A DNA stretch of 64,000 bases, taken from assembly GCA_030068145.1 (NCBI GenBank), contig JAPJBO010000048.1:310001-374000 (forward strand). The letters run 5' to 3'. The translations under genes were made by a program, and so were the position numbers. The stretch is from Diplonema papillatum (lineage: Eukaryota > Euglenozoa > Diplonemea > Diplonemida > Diplonemidae). Below, in pieces: positions 7,145 through 24,948 of this stretch. Within the stretch, counting starts at the first letter, position 1; every line of letters begins with the position of its first letter. The notes beneath the pieces were generated by a model. That model searched no databases and had not been told where the DNA came from. It was given only the letters and a program-made list of their open reading frames with translations.

Positions 7145-7171
7145 TATTGAGACGATGCCAAAAGGGGGGGG
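7145..7171 (+). repeat. Outer end of the long-inverted-repeat element, split off by the retroelement
   Basis: Reads gacgatgccaaaagggg and matches the outer end of the inverted copy at 13215-13230 (read on the minus strand). The rest of the same repeat resumes at 11978 after the retroelement. The G-run here has 8 G; the one at 11982 has 21. Confidence 0.7.
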
Positions 7172-10100
7172 TCGTTGTTGTTGGTGATGGTTTTGTGGGA
7201 TGAAGTAGGGGAAAGAGAATTTCTTTTTGCGGTGGTCTCCGCTGGCCTGGTAGTCCGTGCTACCTCCTTTCTTTTACACTCGTTCTCTTCTCTACTCACT
7301 ACTGTACGTACTCTTTCGCTCTTTTTCTCTCTTTGGCTAGCCAAAACAAAAGACTTCTGCGACCGACACCACGAACACATTCGCAATGAATGTGGCCCTG
7401 GGCCCCCCACGTGCATACATGTTGAGCAGGGGTTGCCATGTAGCCCGTATCGGTCTAAGTCAACACTGTTACTTTCATGGGATGTTCACCGGGGAAGGGT
7501 CCGACCTAACCGTTAGTCAACAGCAACGTCGAAAAGGGGGAGGGGGAAAGAAGATAGAAAATCGGTGGGGTTGACAAGCTCGTAAGTGGTTGTTTGTAGA
7601 TCAGTACAACCTTAAACTACGCCTAGCACACGGCCAGGCGGTCTTTAACGAACCTCCAGTACATTAAACGCAAGTCGGCAGGTCGTCATCAGACGCGGCA
7701 CGAAAAGCAAACGTCGCCGACGCAGCACTTCAGCAATGCGTCCTCTTATTTACAGTGGGCACCGTACCTGAACTCAGCCCCGCTAGGCCGAGATTCCGGC
7801 TGTTCCGCAGGGCATACATCACTCCCCGAAGTTGACGTACGTGCAGAGACGTTCGTGCACATGCAGGCCTCTGAGGCCCCGGAACAATCGACCGTCCTTG
7901 GTGCGGTCGGTGAAGCAGCGCTTGCAGCGCAGTTCCGGGGGGTCCTTGGGCTGTTCAGGTGGCTGGTCGTGTGCTGCCAAAGCAGCGTCGGAGGGCATGG
8001 GTTGGCAAGATGCCAGATTCGCGTCGGTACAGGGCGGACTAGAAGGTATCAGCGGGACCTGCGGTGGGACTGTTGTTGCCATCATAGTAGGTGATGGCAA
8101 GCGTTCGACCACCTCGTGGGACGCATTGGGGATTCGTACGTATGCGGCGAGGTATATGTCAGTCCAAGGAACGTTGTCGACGTGCAAGACTCGTTCGTCA
8201 TCGAAAAGCGTCCATTGCATCCCTTGCAAGACGTATGTGACAAAATGGCCGCTTGTCGTATTTTGTCCCGTGTGTACAACCACCGCGGAAAGGCGTAGTG
8301 TGCCGTCCGGCAGTCGCAGGAGGAGCGGTAGGGAAGCGTCATTCCGTAGTCTCGCACCATCGCTTGCGTAAATGCCGAACTGCAACAGCAGGCACTCGGA
8401 CGCCACATGCACGTTCATGGTCTCCACAACGGATCCAGCAGCTCCGCAGTCACACCTCCTCTCCGGATTCATAATTCCACGAACACAGAATGCGTCCTCC
8501 ACCGGCCTTCCACGAGGGACTTGAAGACACCGTACCAGTTGATGACGGGTGGATGTGGCGCCACAGGCGATACATCGTGTTGTTGTCGTCATCGTGTTTT
8601 CCAGGCACGTCTGGAAAAGCCGCCAATCCGGACAAGCCTCCGTCGTCTCGTCCGGCCCTAGGGAGCTGTCTGTCCTATCCAGAATTGCAACCAAAGCCTC
8701 GTGCGCGTCGTGCTGTCGCGCATCGCAGAACATTGGGAGCATGGCGAGGATTGTTTCAGCCCCTATCCTTCGGCTGTCTTGGCTGAGCTGGCTCCTCCCC
8801 GAGCGCGAGCTTACCAGTAGGACGAAGTACGTCAAGAACTCCTTCAGGAACCCCCGGAAATTCAGAGGATTCTGCGCAAGACTGTAATACATGTTCTCGA
8901 TCGGTTCCACACGCAACAAGAGCTGCAGTACCGCATTGAGAAAACAAGTATTCCCAAGGTTCGGGAGGCCGGCAGGTTCAAACGGTGACGGGTCGAACAT
9001 GCGGGAGGGCCGTTGGATACAAATGACAGCTTGGCGGCCGACAGCGGGTGATGATTCCAGCATGTCAGGCACTGCATGGGACACGTCGCAGCGCCGTTTC
9101 GGTCCAGGCTGAGCAGCCTCATCGTCTCTGCGCTTGCGCTTTCCTTTAGTCGTCCCATCCTGGGGCACAAGATCACGACGCTGCTTCGGAGCCGCAGTGG
9201 AAGGCCGATCGGGCGTATCTCGTTCCGTTCGTGTGCCAGGTCGAGGACGGTCCCTGTATCTCACGAAGGCCTTCTCAGCGAGCAGCCTCTCGACCGCTTG
9301 GTCGATGGACTCCAAGTCGGGCATCTGCAGAATGCGTTCCACTTCATGTACGAGCCACACGAAGTGCGCACGGATCTTCTCGCAGTGATCACCGAACTTC
9401 GCTTCTGGGTACGTGTCTAGTAACCATTTACGAAACCCACTTTTTAAGACACTCTTGCGGTACCCCCGTCTCATGAGCTTCAGCACCGTGTTGTTCATCT
9501 CGGTCTTAAAGTCATGGAGGTTGTTCGCAATCCTGCCGTTACGCACAAGCGCTCCGATGAGGATACTCGACCCAAAGTTCGATGGAGCCGTGGAGAGCAC
9601 GGATGTGTACGCCAAGGGCTGGTATCGGTATGCCTTCGCTTTGTCGAGGACTGACAGGCGCATGTATCTCCTCCCGGACATCTCGGAGACTTCATGTCGA
9701 ATCCGAATACCAAGGAAAGTGGCGTCCCCAACCTTGGCGTTTGTCTGTTTGTACCTCATGTTGTACACAGATTCCGGTGGGGGTTTTGTGCCGAAACACA
9801 ACAGATCGTCAATGAAGCGGCGTGTCAGGCTAAGCAATGCCGCACGTTGCGTGTCCCCGTCTTCCAAGAGTCGCATCATGTATTTTCGCTCTTTCGCATA
9901 GCAAAAGAGGTTGGCGATGTCCGGGGAAGCGTTCGCACCCATTGGGATGCCTAGCGTCTGCCTCATGAGAACCCTATTGACCAGAACATAGGTATTCACC
10001 AGGCAGAAAGACAAGAGGGTCTTGAGCTCCTGCGCCGAATACGCTGCTTCATGTGACCGTACCTCCGTGTTTACCTTAAAGGCGAAACAGCGCTTCTTAC

Positions 10101-11977
10101 GAGTCGGCCCGTGTTGGCTCTTCGGACGTACTAATACGAGTCTTCCCGCGTCCACGTTCAAACGTGCAGCCTCCGCCGCGAAGGCCTCATTAATCGTGTC
10201 CGCAACCGCATTAAGAAGCTCCTCAAGCTCCAGCTGGTCATACATCGTTGTGAAGTCAAATGTACCAGCGTCCAGCTGCGCGAGTTCGTCCGCGTGTGTC
10301 TTCAGGAAGAAGGCCGTGTCGTCGCTCGACTCCGTGATCCAGAAGTACCGGTACCCAGTCGCGTTGAACCGAATGTCGTCTTCCCGCCGGAGGATGCTCA
10401 TGATCGCCTTCAGCAAGCCGGTCAGGTCCAGTTGCGCGTCCGTCGTAGACGAGAACGTGGTCTTAGGGCGGGCGTCCCGTCCAGCATCGGCCGCCTCGGA
10501 GTCGGAGTCGACACAGTTCTTCCGCGAAACCCCAGCGATGTACCGCATGGACGTCACTTCCTTGTGCAGCTTCAGGGTGCCATATAGGTATGGGAGGACG
10601 TTCGATGAGTGTAATCCTTCCCGTCCGAGGTAGGCCTTGTGCCTCGCAATGACTTGTTGAGGCGTCTCTTCGCTCGGGGAGTAGTTCGTACTGTGATTGA
10701 CCTTCGCGTGTAAGTCCTGGTTGTAAAATCTTTTACACACGAAGCCGAAATCATGCGAGCTCTTGTCCACGGGCAGGATCACGAGATGTTCCTGCAACTC
10801 CAACAGTTTTTTACGCGCTCCAGCCGTCAGCTCCGGATCGGCTCCCACCCGGGAGAGGTCAACCGTGGCTAGTATCTTCCTCCGTAGCATCCTTGCGAAG
10901 TGCGGAGGGGCGTCCTTGAATTGCTCCTCAACGAACTGGGTCACAGCTTTGTCGACCTCCCTGCAAACGGCTTCTTCCCCACCGTCCGGTCGGAACTTGC
11001 GACCCTTGTCAAAAAGCGAAATTAGCTCGCTCGACGTTTTGAGGAGGTGTGCCTGCCCGCACGCATGCCCTTGGATGTGGTATCCGTCTAGAAGGTAGCG
11101 TTGGCAAGGGCATTCACCAGGGGGAGGGGCCGGGGCAGCAGTTGTTTGTCGCGAAACATCCGTAAAGTTTGACAGAAGGACCCCGAGGGGAGGATTAAGC
11201 GACGTGGAAACCCTCGTGTTCACGAAGTCCGTTGAGTCCGCGAGCATTTCACGGAGTTCGGTATCGTGACGGAAAACGGCGGCTAGCTTCCTTTCATCCA
11301 TCATCTTGCTCACCTGCCGTATGCAGAACCAAGGCGTTCGTGCTGCACTCTTTTTCTTCTTCGCAAGATGGTTGATCTCACTAAGCCTCGCCGTGAGCAG
11401 CTCGTCCAGGATTGCTACCTTCGGGTGCTGCAGGTGCTCAACCATGAACATTCGCACCCAGGTACGAACTCTGTAAACGCGGCTCTTCATCCACGGGTTC
11501 ACGTCGTATGCCCGTAGGGTGTCCTCATCGAGTCCGAACATGTAATGCAGCTGCTTCCGGATGCCGAAGTATCGGCCTCGACTTTGGTCCACGTGGATCT
11601 GCCCATCCTTCACATGCACCCAGGCGTCTCCGCGCTCTCGAGGATATTCCGGGGTAGACTGCCCGCTGTCCGGTTTGCCCTTGAACGACGGAGCAGATCG
11701 CGGCTTCTTACCTCGCTTGTTAAAGCCGCTTGCAGTACTAACCATATTGAACTGCGGCTTTAGCCTCGCGATGAAAGCCATTTCTATCGGCTCGGCAACT
11801 TTGTCGAAGTTACCCCCAGCCGCATAGAACGCTTCTGGGACGTCGTAGAGGATGAACGCGTAAGGCGGCGAGGGGAGGTTCTGCAAGTGTCGCTTGAACC
11901 TGTCCTGCTTGGTGTTCCGGCCAGACCAATGCTTTGTAACCCGCTCCTGCATCGTCTTGCTCGTCTTGCCGATGTAC
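7172..11977 (-). mobile_element. Penelope-like retroelement, 5'-truncated, permuted GIY-YIG/RT type with USP domain
   Basis: About 4.8 kb between two copies of aaaaggggggg (7160-7171 and 11978-12002), which I read as the target duplication inside a pre-existing repeat. The coding strand is minus. The 5' end is lost within the GIY-YIG domain exactly at the junction, as expected for 5'-truncated target-primed insertion. Beyond the stop at 7819 lies about 650 bp of 3' UTR ending in a short CAA-type run (accaacaacaacga). Part of that UTR (7345-7475) recurs at 37465-37590. N-terminal GIY-YIG, a CxC motif and this RT type match the Naiad/Chlamys clade of Penelope-like elements described from algae, protists and invertebrates. 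Confidence 0.85.
7819..11976 (-). CDS. GIY-YIG endonuclease / reverse transcriptase / ubiquitin-specific protease fusion
   Basis: One uninterrupted 1385-residue frame, lacking its true start because the 5' end is truncated. GIY-YIG nuclease at 1-80: YIGKT at the very start (the preceding GIY strand is missing), an R and H after it, catalytic-type Glu65 in PIEMAF, then LKPQFN. A CxC motif (CPCQRYLL, near 288) and VDKSSHDFGFVCKRFY precede the RT. RT: motif A FDFTTMY (Asp574), motif B LGIPMGANASP (near 675), motif C FIDD (Asp723-Asp724). A basic NLS-like linker (KGKRKRRDDE) follows. The USP at about 1000-1285 has the Cys box LGNTCFLNAVLQ (Cys1011), QHDAHEAL, two CxxC-type pairs, the His box SGHFVTYV (His1244) and an Asp box LFDDE (Asp1259), so the catalytic triad looks intact. 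The C-terminus is a C-x2-C...H-x-H-x3-C finger (about 1348-1380). Known: Penelope-like RT primes on nicked DNA; USPs remove ubiquitin. Inferred: the element deubiquitinates a host or self protein during its cycle. Confidence 0.9.
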   Translation of the reverse strand, partial: YIGKTSKTMQERVTKHWSGRNTKQDRFKRHLQNLPSPPYAFILYDVPEAFYAAGGNFDKVAEPIEMAFIARLKPQFNMVSTASGFNKRGKKPRSAPSFKGKPDSGQSTPEYPRERGDAWVHVKDGQIHVDQSRGRYFGIRKQLHYMFGLDEDTLRAYDVNPWMKSRVYRVRTWVRMFMVEHLQHPKVAILDELLTARLSEINHLAKKKKSAARTPWFCIRQVSKMMDERKLAAVFRHDTELREMLADSTDFVNTRVSTSLNPPLGVLLSNFTDVSRQTTAAPAPPPGECPCQRYLLDGYHIQGHACGQAHLLKTSSELISLFDKGRKFRPDGGEEAVCREVDKAVTQFVEEQFKDAPPHFARMLRRKILATVDLSRVGADPELTAGARKKLLELQEHLVILPVDKSSHDFGFVCKRFYNQDLHAKVNHSTNYSPSEETPQQVIARHKAYLGREGLHSSNVLPYLYGTLKLHKEVTSMRYIAGVSRKNCVDSDSEAADAGRDARPKTTFSSTTDAQLDLTGLLKAIMSILRREDDIRFNATGYRYFWITESSDDTAFFLKTHADELAQLDAGTFDFTTMYDQLELEELLNAVADTINEAFAAEAARLNVDAGRLVLVRPKSQHGPTRKKRCFAFKVNTEVRSHEAAYSAQELKTLLSFCLVNTYVLVNRVLMRQTLGIPMGANASPDIANLFCYAKERKYMMRLLEDGDTQRAALLSLTRRFIDDLLCFGTKPPPESVYNMRYKQTNAKVGDATFLGIRIRHEVSEMSGRRYMRLSVLDKAKAYRYQPLAYTSVLSTAPSNFGSSILIGALVRNGRIANNLHDFKTEMNNTVLKLMRRGYRKSVLKSGFRKWLLDTYPEAKFGDHCEKIRAHFVWLVHEVERILQMPDLESIDQAVERLLAEKAFVRYRDRPRPGTRTERDTPDRPSTAAPKQRRDLVPQDGTTKGKRKRRDDEAAQPGPKRRCDVSHAVPDMLESSPAVGRQAVICIQRPSRMFDPSPFEPAGLPNLGNTCFLNAVLQLLLRVEPIENMYYSLAQNPLNFRGFLKEFLTYFVLLVSSRSGRSQLSQDSRRIGAETILAMLPMFCDARQHDAHEALVAILDRTDSSLGPDETTEACPDWRLFQTCLENTMTTTTRCIACGATSTRHQLVRCLQVPRGRPVEDAFCVRGIMNPERRCDCGAAGSVVETMNVHVASECLLLQFGIYASDGARLRNDASLPLLLRLPDGTLRLSAVVVHTGQNTTSGHFVTYVLQGMQWTLFDDERVLHVDNVPWTDIYLAAYVRIPNASHEVVERLPSPTMMATTVPPQVPLIPSSPPCTDANLASCQPMPSDAALAAHDQPPEQPKDPPELRCKRCFTDRTKDGRLFRGLRGLHVHERLCTYVNFGE

Positions 11978-13230
11978 AAAAGGGGGGGGGGGGGGGGGGG
12001 GGTTTGGGCAGACGTTTTCTGGTATAGTCAGATACTGGGCATGTGGGGTATAGGACCCATACCCACCCAGAAACCATGTTTTCGGGCCAATTTTGGGGTC
12101 CAATGCCCTCGGAGAACCTTTTTCTGAGCGCAAAACTCAGTTGTTGTGGACTTTGAGGCCCCAGGTAGGGTTACGACTGTACAATGCGGCAGCACCCACC
12201 CAGAACAGGAACTTAACTCTGTTCTCAGAATGCGTGACTCGTAAATGCGTTTCGTTCGAAGAATTGGCTCAAAAATTTGCAAGGCAAGATGCACACGAAG
12301 TACGATAGGTCACAAGGCTCCATGCGGAGACATTTTAGAGCGACGAGAGCCTTTCTGATGAAAGCTGCAGGAGTTGACCCGATTGCGCCCGGGGTCTCTG
12401 TACAGAGGGCGACCGACAAAGGTGACCCATGAGGCAGCAGGCATTCGACGATCTCGTGGAGGCAACCACCGACGTCGTGGGTCACGGAAAAGCTGTCGTG
12501 CACAAGACGTTCGTCGCACAAATCCTTCTAGCACAGGCTGGTGGACGAAGAAGGCCAACTAACGGCAAAGGTGTCGTACACCACGTACCGCCAGCTACGT
12601 GGTGCCCGGTTCGAACACCTGGCCGGACGTGTGCGACACCTGCAGAAGGGAACACGATTAACCATCGCCTTCGTGAGGTTACCAGCAGCAAACTCACTTC
12701 TTTCGATCCGACAAGCCGATTTCTGCCAATAAAAGTTGCCAATACTGCCAGAAGAACCTGGGGTCAGCTTTTTTAACAACCAGGGGCCTCGCCTCCTTGA
12801 TGATTGATTTGCGTTGGACGACAGGTGACTCGATCCAACTTGGGGAACTGTTTTAGCTGGTGTACAGTGGGTTTCACACTGGATTTGCGGGTGTCACACT
12901 GGATTCCGCACTGGATTTTTGGGTGTCAGTGGATTTCACGCTGGATTTGCGGGTGTGGCACACTGGATCTAGCAGGTGTGCCCACGCCCGACACTTTGGC
13001 CGCACAGTTAACACCCCCACACGATGCTGGAGTGCACCGTGCGGGGCCTCGAAACCCACAGAAACAGAGTTTTGCGCTCAGAAAAAGGCTCTCCGAGGGC
13101 ATTTGGCCCCAAAACCGGCCCGAAAAAATGGTTTCTGGGGGGATATGGGTCCCATACCCCACATGCCCAGTATCTTACTATGCCATAAAACATCTGCCCA
13201 AACCCCCCCCCCCCTTTTGGCATCGTACCA
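11978..13230. mobile_element. Degenerate element with long (about 185 bp) inverted repeats
   Basis: 11978-12180 (plus G-run, tttgggcagacgttttctgg, ggcatgtggggtatagg, ccctcggagaacctttttct) is repeated in reverse at 13040-13230, where it ends in a C-run and ttttggcatcg. The outermost left end now lies at 7145-7171, cut off by the retroelement. The interior contains a decayed ORF (12328-12732) and short repeats of cactggatttgcgggtgt (12865-12970). A diverged relative with the same termini spans 39806-40945. Long inverted termini suggest a non-autonomous DNA transposon. Confidence 0.6.
12328..12732 (+). pseudogene. Frame-shifted remnant of an unknown ORF
   Basis: Three consecutive plus-strand reading pieces look like one protein broken by frameshifts: MRRHFRATRAFLMKAAGVDP from about 12320, then FDDLVEATTDVVGHGKAVVH from 12429, then VSYTTYRQLRGARFEHLAGR to a stop at 12732. 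It lies between the inverted repeats and may be the relic of the element's own gene. No family is recognised. Confidence 0.35.
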
Positions 13231-20334: not shown

Positions 20335-20585
20335 TCGAGGCTATTTCACTTCGCTGCCTCAGCAGTGTTGCTATTGGGCAATTTGCGTACCTGCTGCCAT
20401 CCTTAGATGTGGTAGCCGTTTCTCAGGCGTCCTATCCATATTCGAACCCTAATTCCCCGTTACCCGTTACAGCCACGGTAGTCCACTACACTACCGTCAA
20501 AAGCTGATAGGGCAGAAGCTCTTGCGGGCTTGCACCGACTTGAAGTCGTGTGCTATCACTCGATTGACCATTTCATCCACACGCC
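20335..20585 (-). rRNA. 18S (SSU) rRNA fragment, degenerate
   Basis: Read on the minus strand, this contains universally conserved SSU segments in order: TTCTGCCCTATCAGC, TGTAACGGGTAACGGGGAAT, TTAGGGTTCGA, GCCTGAGAAACGGCTACCAC, ATCTAAGGATGGCAGCAGG and CAAATTGCCCAAT. Corresponds roughly to positions 270-470 of the gene. The normally invariant stretch after GGTTCGA (TTCCGGAGAGGGAG) is altered to ATATGGATAGGACG, and no flanking rRNA is present, so it is a pseudogene fragment. Euglenozoan-type residues follow (GAGGCAGCGAAGTGAAATAG). Confidence 0.85.
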
Positions 20586-20589
20586 GCTG

Positions 20590-21595
<1,006 letters not shown>

Positions 21596-23631: not shown

Positions 23632-24948
23632 CTATGCAGAATTGGCCTTCGCCTGCACAAAGTTTAGGCGACGGCTCGGGACCATCTCGACAAAACGGTC
23701 AACAACCTTCTCCAAAAAGACCATCGAAAGCTCTGGTGGACCCTCGATACGGATGCGCAGGATCATATCCAAATGTCCGCTCGTGAGCCGGTTCCTTAAA
23801 AGATCCAGGGTGTCTTTGAGAACACTGAATGATCGCTCAACAGCACTCGTCCCTGAGGGATAAGTGGCGACCAACCGCATGGCGGAGACTGCACGTGGGA
23901 GTGCTTGCGCCTCGTGCTTCATGGCATAAAGCAAGGCATCCTGAAAGCTGAAAGCCTCGGGATCTGTGCACCTTTCCTTGGTCATCTGAATGGTCTTGAG
24001 CAATTGGGGTAGCTCGTGCTTCACACCCCGACCCTGGGCAGCACTCCACATCGGCTGGAAATGTCTGTCCTCTTTTCCTGTCACTTGGACCGTTTTGCAC
24101 GTTGTGAAGTGTTCAACGAAAGTGTCGATCAATGCTGCATCACTATCGCAGTCGTGTCCGAACGCGTACTTTGGGTCAAAGAGAGCCAGCACACTCACGA
24201 TACCGTAATCCTTGAACCGGGTTTTGAGCTGCTCGACTAGCTTCTCACAGTAAACCTTTCCAGTCGCAGCATGGTAAAGGGACCACGATTGCTTGCCGAC
24301 TGTCTTCCCGCTTGCGTGCTCGGATATGTACCAATTGTAGTACAGCGGCCACGTGTGGTAGCCAATGTCGGCAGGCTGGATGGACTGGGGGTCCAGGGTC
24401 GGGGGAGCGAGGTCTTTGATGGCAGTGATGGAACTGATTACAACTTCAACTTGTCGGGAAACACCGATGAGAGCGGAGGCCCCCTTTTGTAGCTGCAGGG
24501 AAAGAGGACAGACAATCCCAAAGATTTCACGCAAGAGGAAGAGGGACGCAATGAATGCCGGGGACAGCAACCGTGTGACAAGCCCAGTCGAAAGAGCGTC
24601 TCCGGACTCTGCCCGGAGGTCTTCGATTGTTTCGTAAATGGCTGGCCACGTGCGAAGGGTCACAGCAGCCGATCTCTCGTTAGTCAACCATCTTGTATCA
24701 CCGCTTTTAACCAAGACTTTGTTCGGCATTCGGCTGAACCTTTCCTTTTCCCTCACCTCCTGGATGGTGTCGCGGTACCGTCCCATCCTTTGTGTACTCG
24801 CCCTGAGGAAGAAGAACAAGTCCCTCAGGCTGTTGACACAACTGAGAACGTCAAAGGTGAGCATGGCAGCCCAGACAACTGCCAGTTGCAGTTTGTGAGA
24901 ACTGCACCACACGTACACAGCGAAGGCATTGTACTCCCACTTCTTCCG
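23632..24948 (-). pseudogene. hAT-family transposase, 5'-truncated
   Basis: The frame is open from about 24948 with no real ATG at its start. It begins at the conserved VWCSSHKLQLAV region, continues through DTRWLTNERSAAVTLRTW and LALFDPKYAFGHD, and ends with the hAT C-terminal dimerisation region (ATYPSGTSAVERSFSVLKDT, LLRNRLTSGHLDMILRIRIE). Most similar in style to the ZMYM/KIAA1586-like hAT group. The N-terminal BED finger and first catalytic Asp region are absent, so it is a relic. It lies in the intron of the TH1-like gene, same strand. Confidence 0.8.

Follow-up and report, generated by a model that had tools for sequence, protein, structure and literature searches.

The window, that is the whole stretch of 64,000 nucleotides of DNA that was analysed (contig C48, 310001–374000), comes from the marine protist Diplonema papillatum, a diplonemid of the Euglenozoa. 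It carries on its minus strand an open frame (7819–12027) that an ORF reading shows to be uninterrupted over the 1402 codons between two stops. In this frame the YIGKT motif of a GIY-YIG endonuclease is followed by a reverse transcriptase (RT), a ubiquitin-specific protease (USP) and a C-terminal finger. An earlier note on this DNA had described a single stop-free frame passing from GIY-YIG through the RT into a USP, and this description held: all 1402 codons are open, and Pfam UCH (PF00443) matches residues 1019–1284 of the frame translation, P0001, with E 4.4e-23 and 82.6 bits (cut-off 23.9). The copy is not, as the note had it, a complete element. Comparison with another copy by blastn (99.9% identity across 4815 bp) placed the first element base at 11978, a point 298 nt into the coding region. 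About 99 of the 1485 residues are therefore missing from the N-terminus, and the insertion is 5'-truncated. The annotated full-length protein P0003 has 1485 aa, the window copy starts near its residue 100, and half of the GIY-YIG motif is among the residues lost. From full-length copies we estimate the full element unit at about 8.06 kb. Upstream of the insertion come a C/G tract of 21 bases and a dispersed repeat, so the first 16 or so residues encoded by the frame stem from poly(C) target and flanking DNA and do not belong to the element; the TTG “start” of the frame was rejected as a by-product of ORF calling. The features of the copy are as follows.

7164–11978, minus strand: whole element copy, 5'-truncated, 4815 bp (blastn to another copy)
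7819–11978, minus strand: remaining coding region, open to the TGA at 7819–7821 (frame translation, blastn)
11740–11976, minus strand: GIY-YIG endonuclease domain, present from YIG onward, GIY strand absent (Pfam and sequence comparison)
11056–11112, minus strand: CPC...GHxxG motif, shared with clade D and P0015 (motif by eye)
9397–10839, minus strand: reverse transcriptase, telomerase/PLE-like (alignment, weak RVT_1 match, fold comparison)
8992–9324, minus strand: fast-evolving linker from RT to USP (sequence and dN/dS)
8125–8985, minus strand: USP domain (Pfam, alignment, structure model)
8944–8946 (Cys), 8245–8247 (His) and 8197–8199 (Asp), minus strand: catalytic codons of the USP (alignment)
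7843–7926, minus strand: C-terminal finger C..C...H....C (five similar fingers in P0015)
7164–7818, minus strand: 3' UTR up to and including its final C tract, the 3' end shared across the family (copy comparison)
11977–11989, no strand: left copy of the target-site duplication, CAAAAGGGGGGGG on the plus strand, a few of its bases shared with the element (boundaries by eye)
7159–7171, no strand: right copy of the target-site duplication, CAAAAGGGGGGGG on the plus strand, overlapping the C tract of the element (boundaries by eye)
11982–12002, no strand: poly(G/C) tract of the target, 5' side (sequence)

Copies and subfamilies in the genome

Copies were searched for in the 271-Mb D. papillatum assembly, where the best candidates were scored, so that all counts are lower bounds. 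The window protein gave 35 matches at no fewer than 34 loci. All 34 extend to the C-terminal end; 20 span the whole query or reach residue 1381, and 14 are cut on the 5' side or split in two. With the annotated protein P0004 as query we obtained 34 matches at a minimum of 31 loci, two of which had also come up with the window protein; each of them extends to residue 1498 or 1499. P0016 yielded 53 matches at 52 or more loci, 51 of which extend to residue 866 or 867; the locus on contig C17 stops at residue 827, inside the USP, and the one on C29 is missing part of the USP. Open frames of 1562–1590 aa occur among the copies, and an in-frame stop was present in 5 of 115 loci among the matches listed. 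Copies lacking the USP had been considered in the earlier note, but the USP was found, at least in part, at 115 of 115 loci among the matches listed, and no USP-less copy emerged. P0005, whose annotation has no USP, had looked like a USP-less relative; we rejected it as such, as L036 and L037, copies of the same subfamily, are open through the whole USP and the gap in P0005 is therefore a gene-model matter.

The copies fall into two deep clades, whose RTs are about 38–39% identical, and into seven subfamilies in D. papillatum, which are internally 99–100% alike. Clade A-C comprises the window family A, subfamily B (P0004), subfamily C (86% to B and 67% to A) and A2, which was recognised by the USP part within a frame of 702 aa (L050); this locus, C9:546040, had been a candidate host USP and was reassigned as the fourth subfamily of clade A-C. 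Clade D is made up of D1 (P0016), D2 (80%) and D3 (75%). The order of GIY-YIG, CxC motif, RT and USP is the same in both clades, but the clade D protein ends directly after the USP without the C-terminal finger of clade A-C. Between A and D the RT is 38.5% identical over 457 positions. A further relative, P0015 (1662 aa, on a 6.5-kb contig in ENA), is 42% identical over the RT region and has five fingers like the C-terminal one of the element, placed before its USP. Relatives were not found on IMG/VR and GTDB contigs. As the USP fusion is also present in clade D and P0015, it is not a single accident of family A. Judged from the sequences of the copies listed, the USP is a fixed part of a single GIY-YIG - RT - USP polyprotein.

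The earlier note had also allowed for an artefact, in which the USP of a neighbouring host gene became joined to the element by an assembly error. This did not come true among the matches listed, nor is the frame a chance one: copies from dozens of contigs, belonging to two clades about 38% alike in the RT, share one junction, and we rejected such an artefact as scarcely conceivable.

In a PF00443 search of the genome, about 113 of 149 scored USP places resembled element copies, judging by their score and coverage, which would mean that automatic annotation overcounts USP genes here. P0003 and P0004 are themselves annotated as “putative ubiquitin carboxyl-terminal hydrolase 16”, and most loci annotated as USP genes in D. 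papillatum may be element copies.

Insertion into poly(C) tracts and relation to Penelope-like elements

Over the last 2.8 kb of the coding region, 30 family-A copies differ by a median of 0.11%, which points to recent spread. Nearly all of these copies have the same 3' base, and their 5' ends are variable. Runs of at least seven C were found at the 3' junction of 26 of the 30 copies. Of the 19 copies whose sequence includes the 5' junction, 17 have such a run no more than 50 nt away from it (in the other 11 of 30 the junction lies outside the sequence); the 64-kb window contains a total of eight stretches of C or G that are eight or more bases long. Target-site duplications that include letters other than the C run measure, among others, 34 nt (L003), 33 nt (L022) and 31 nt (L028), and 11 nt or so in the window copy. 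Some loci have flanking repeats in common (L014/L015, L006/L026), hence not all of them are independent events. In each of three full-length copies inspected, at least 209 bp of the element 3' end precede the first base via CCCCCC, forming a pseudo-LTR: positions 158–366 of L031 are the 3' end of its own element, and the junction is repeated in L032 and L033. On C56 the upstream pseudo-LTR piece measures about 0.4 kb. A tandem array on C510 consists of three D2 copies with 5726 bp spacing, each ending in CCCCCC and 99.97% identical across the 3.8 kb compared. From these sequences, the single 3' end, the 5' truncations, the target-site duplications and the partial tandems show that the copies have multiplied by retrotransposition, with poly(C) tracts as their insertion sites.

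The upstream repeat of the window insertion has a paralogue at 13043–13214 (89%), which continues across a C tract into 12 bases that also form the downstream flank of the insertion; this is consistent with an empty site but is not proof of one. The repeat itself (11991–12162 and 13043–13214) is dispersed, the genome holding no fewer than 40 relatives of it, and runs into a poly(C) tract. It is possibly a non-autonomous element sharing the poly(C) machinery.

From the end sequences alone we infer a priming mode by telomerase-like pairing on the G strand of poly(C). The element protein would bind its own RNA and the GIY-YIG enzyme would nick a poly(C/G) tract on its G strand, which would then pair with the terminal C tract of the RNA and be extended by the RT, as in telomerase-like pairing of primer and template. 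The poly(C) end structure would make it possible to look for priming of the telomerase kind in a Penelope-like element (PLE) that has an endonuclease.

The RT motifs FDFTTMY, GIPMGANASP and FIDD are present in the translation. The RVT_1 match to the RT was weak, and a PDB sequence search using the RT profile returned no RT; in a fold comparison based on a low-confidence model, telomerases were the nearest solved folds, in agreement with the Penelope-like RT proposed earlier. The GIY-YIG match of the window copy is also weak (E 0.013, below the cut-off) because the copy starts inside the motif. Other proteins scored 23.0 (P0003) and 22.6 bits (P0004), at or above the cut-off of 22.6, and 20.9 (P0005) and 20.1 bits (subfamily C) below it. 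GIY-YIG lies N-terminal to the RT in proteins of clades A-C and D, which confirms the domain order read from the window. Hammerhead ribozymes occur in many PLEs but are not universal. Rfam gave no match in L031, L005, L042 and L035 at E up to 1, nor a hammerhead-type match in L003. In the 5' region of full-length elements we sought an ORF1 and obtained no convincing frame; in family A this region holds a 222-bp tandem repeat of 3.4 copies (L031, 1664–2429). With a telomerase-like RT, an associated GIY-YIG domain and pseudo-LTRs with tandems, the element is, as judged by domains and copy structure, a Penelope-like retroelement.

PLEs with an N-terminal GIY-YIG have reportedly been described by Craig et al. 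in 2021 as Chlamys and Naiad. Likened to these by domain order, the element has GIY-YIG before the RT, a telomerase-like RT and one ORF in common with them; it differs in the USP (plus finger in clade A-C) after the RT and in its insertion into poly(C). With Penelope and Poseidon, as portrayed in PMC3846280 and PMC11167929, it shares GIY-YIG and RT, 5' truncation, target-site duplications, tandems and pseudo-LTRs, the last a PLE trait according to the same texts. There, however, the endonuclease is C-terminal, whereas here it is N-terminal, with an additional USP and no hammerhead by Rfam. The Terminons, giant PLEs of rotifers (PMC6431247), likewise combine a PLE RT with accessory enzymes, pairing of C-rich and G-rich ends and 5'-truncated arrays, but they are telomeric and far larger than the D. 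papillatum element, and the accessories named there are exonucleases, esterases, Rep and others, with no USP listed. The main text of the D. papillatum genome paper (PMC10161547) names retrovirus-like, LINE-1, SLACS, R2/jockey, TATE, MULE and Helitron proteins, and the words “Penelope” and “ubiquitin” do not appear in it. A PLE with a USP was not found in the literature searched, which covers few subscription journals.

The USP domain, its selection and its origin

UCH scores above the cut-off of 23.9 bits were obtained throughout (P0003 82.4, P0004 74.6, subfamily C 72.9, P0016 66.2, P0015 56.8). The catalytic Cys, His and Asp are invariant in 17 of 17 aligned USPs (7 element and 10 host places), and the residue after the catalytic His is Phe or Tyr in the same 17. 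All seven D. papillatum subfamilies keep the three residues and the aromatic one, which according to PMC7391069 marks proteases cleaving after Gly-Gly. P0015 departs from this pattern with Leu after the catalytic His and an acidic box that is not clear. The structure model of the USP has a pLDDT of 83, and among the matches listed the closest PDB folds were USPs in 50 of 50 cases (best Foldseek E 2.2e-19, TM up to 0.75). The element USP thus resembles USP family C19 (e.g. USP12, USP46, USP36, USP35) in fold, Cys/His/Asp and the aromatic residue after His, but differs in its fusion to an RT and in being only about 16–24% identical to the host USPs sampled. With its catalytic residues intact, it is a predicted deubiquitinase. 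A homology search with the USP part alone gave no matches beyond the element family at E ≤ 1e-8, a strict cut-off that hides weaker relatives.

Between subfamilies B and C (dS about 0.6) dN/dS came to 0.056 in the RT, 0.117 in the N-terminal part, 0.224 in the USP (95% interval 0.149–0.323), 0.343 in the linker (0.189–0.584) and 0.397 in the tail (0.225–0.678). The USP value is lower than that of the linker as a point estimate, but the intervals overlap and the difference is not significant. In clade D pairs, with dS above 1 and wide intervals, the USP gave 0.114–0.142, the RT 0.063–0.083 and the short linker 0.22–0.61. The USP protein changes 2–4 times faster than the RT, with dN of 0.128 vs 0.033 (B-C) and 0.176 vs 0.071 (D1-D2). 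The comparison of dN/dS across copies proposed earlier thus gave 0.11–0.22 for the USP, indicating purifying selection; on these codon comparisons the USP is retained by selection, but less tightly than the RT.

As to where the USP came from, the capture from the host that had been suggested could not be traced to a source: 12 D. papillatum host USPs are 16.5–23.9% identical to the window-family USP. The same 12 (out of about 36 non-element USP places) entered a tree with the element USPs and one mammalian USP, P0013 and P0014 being left out. In the best tree a branch supported at 65/84 separates the element USPs from the others, though the program gave a long-branch warning. When P0015 was omitted, the tree holding the element USPs together was 6.79 log units worse (p-AU 0.106). 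We regard it as a serious possibility, somewhat short of an even chance, that the USP was captured independently in clade A-C, clade D and P0015. Their USPs are 13–22% identical and so as unlike one another as they are unlike host USPs, while their RTs are 38–47% identical; the clade-D USP profile scores a host USP (L045, 42.5 bits) above clade-A USPs (20–23 bits), the clade-A profile ranks two host USPs above clade D, and USP and RT similarities disagree on whether A or D is nearer to P0015. However, the USP occupies the same C-terminal position in all three, the best tree groups them, albeit where long branches meet, and low identity among element USPs is expected given that they evolve several times faster than the RTs. 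Gained once or repeatedly, the USP would be remarkable either way. The far-reaching version, in which it was gained once before clades A-C, D and P0015 parted, has been essential since, and belongs to an element that inserts into poly(C)/poly(G) and outnumbers the host USPs, seems to us possible though on balance unlikely; if true, this would be the first retrotransposon lineage needing USP-based ubiquitin antagonism for its mobility.

Possible function of the USP

The presence of a USP in the element suggests, from its predicted sequence features, that parasitic DNA counters or exploits the host's protein tagging. We propose that the USP acts in cis or nearby and would strip ubiquitin from the element's own RT/endonuclease and particle, so that the element protein could outlive ubiquitin-driven turnover by the host for long enough to integrate. 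Such protection in cis is the least certain part of what we infer and is argued from the fusion and from precedent. For the latter, Helitrons and Helentrons, as presented in PMC9741609, are likewise mobile elements with a deubiquitinase, proposed to protect the transposition proteins, but they are rolling-circle DNA transposons and their domains are VTD/OTU, not USP. Taken as a whole, the reading as a PLE with a fixed GIY-YIG - RT - USP order, poly(C) priming and a USP protecting its own ribonucleoprotein appears to us about evenly poised between right and wrong. It would show that a retrotransposon, besides viruses and Helitrons, has built ubiquitin removal into the enzyme that replicates it, and it suggests that the mobility of PLEs is held back by turnover through ubiquitin or by ubiquitin on chromatin.

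Other substrates would give the USP a different role. It might deubiquitinate H2A/H2B or repair factors at the target and so open the nicked site or steer its repair; the element protein does include an endonuclease, to which clade A-C adds a finger at the C-terminus, and the nearest folds to the USP model include, among the matches listed, Ubp8 of SAGA on nucleosomes and USP1 on FANCD2. The same list also holds USPs with many other substrates, so chromatin is not singled out, and clade D stops right after the USP without a finger, which leaves this role unlikely in our estimate. Somewhat less probable again is a trans-acting factor that would serve the whole family against ubiquitin-dependent silencing or degradation. 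The large share of USP places resembling element copies (about 113 of 149) and the long open USP frame retained in many 5'-truncated copies would fit such a factor, but truncated copies with the USP only are expected from the mechanism and do not imply expression.

The long frame holding several enzymes could also bring to mind a protease that processes the polyprotein instead of a deubiquitinase, and many viral proteases do both. Yet in all seven element USPs aligned the catalytic His is followed by an aromatic gatekeeper, which is typical of enzymes cleaving at Gly-Gly, as in ubiquitin, and we consider processing quite improbable; Pfam detected no ubiquitin-like domain in the window frame or the annotated proteins. 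Protection of the element's own ribonucleoprotein stays our preferred, if provisional, reading.

Another frame in the window touches on the USP. P0002 (51429–56159, minus strand) is open over 1577 codons and has no Pfam match; hhalign gave its residues 1108–1197 a weak alignment to the USP profile (E 5.6e-4, probability 30%), in which the sequence of the Cys box, DKSGFFAAVVQ, contains no Cys. Going by these residues, P0002 may be another element-like frame with a dead USP-like domain. Elsewhere in the window, a minus-strand frame at 23632–24945 weakly matches the hAT dimerisation domain (E 0.0023, below the cut-off), and a fragment of small-subunit rRNA lies at 20348–20624 on the minus strand, outside any rDNA unit (108.9 bits to RF02542).
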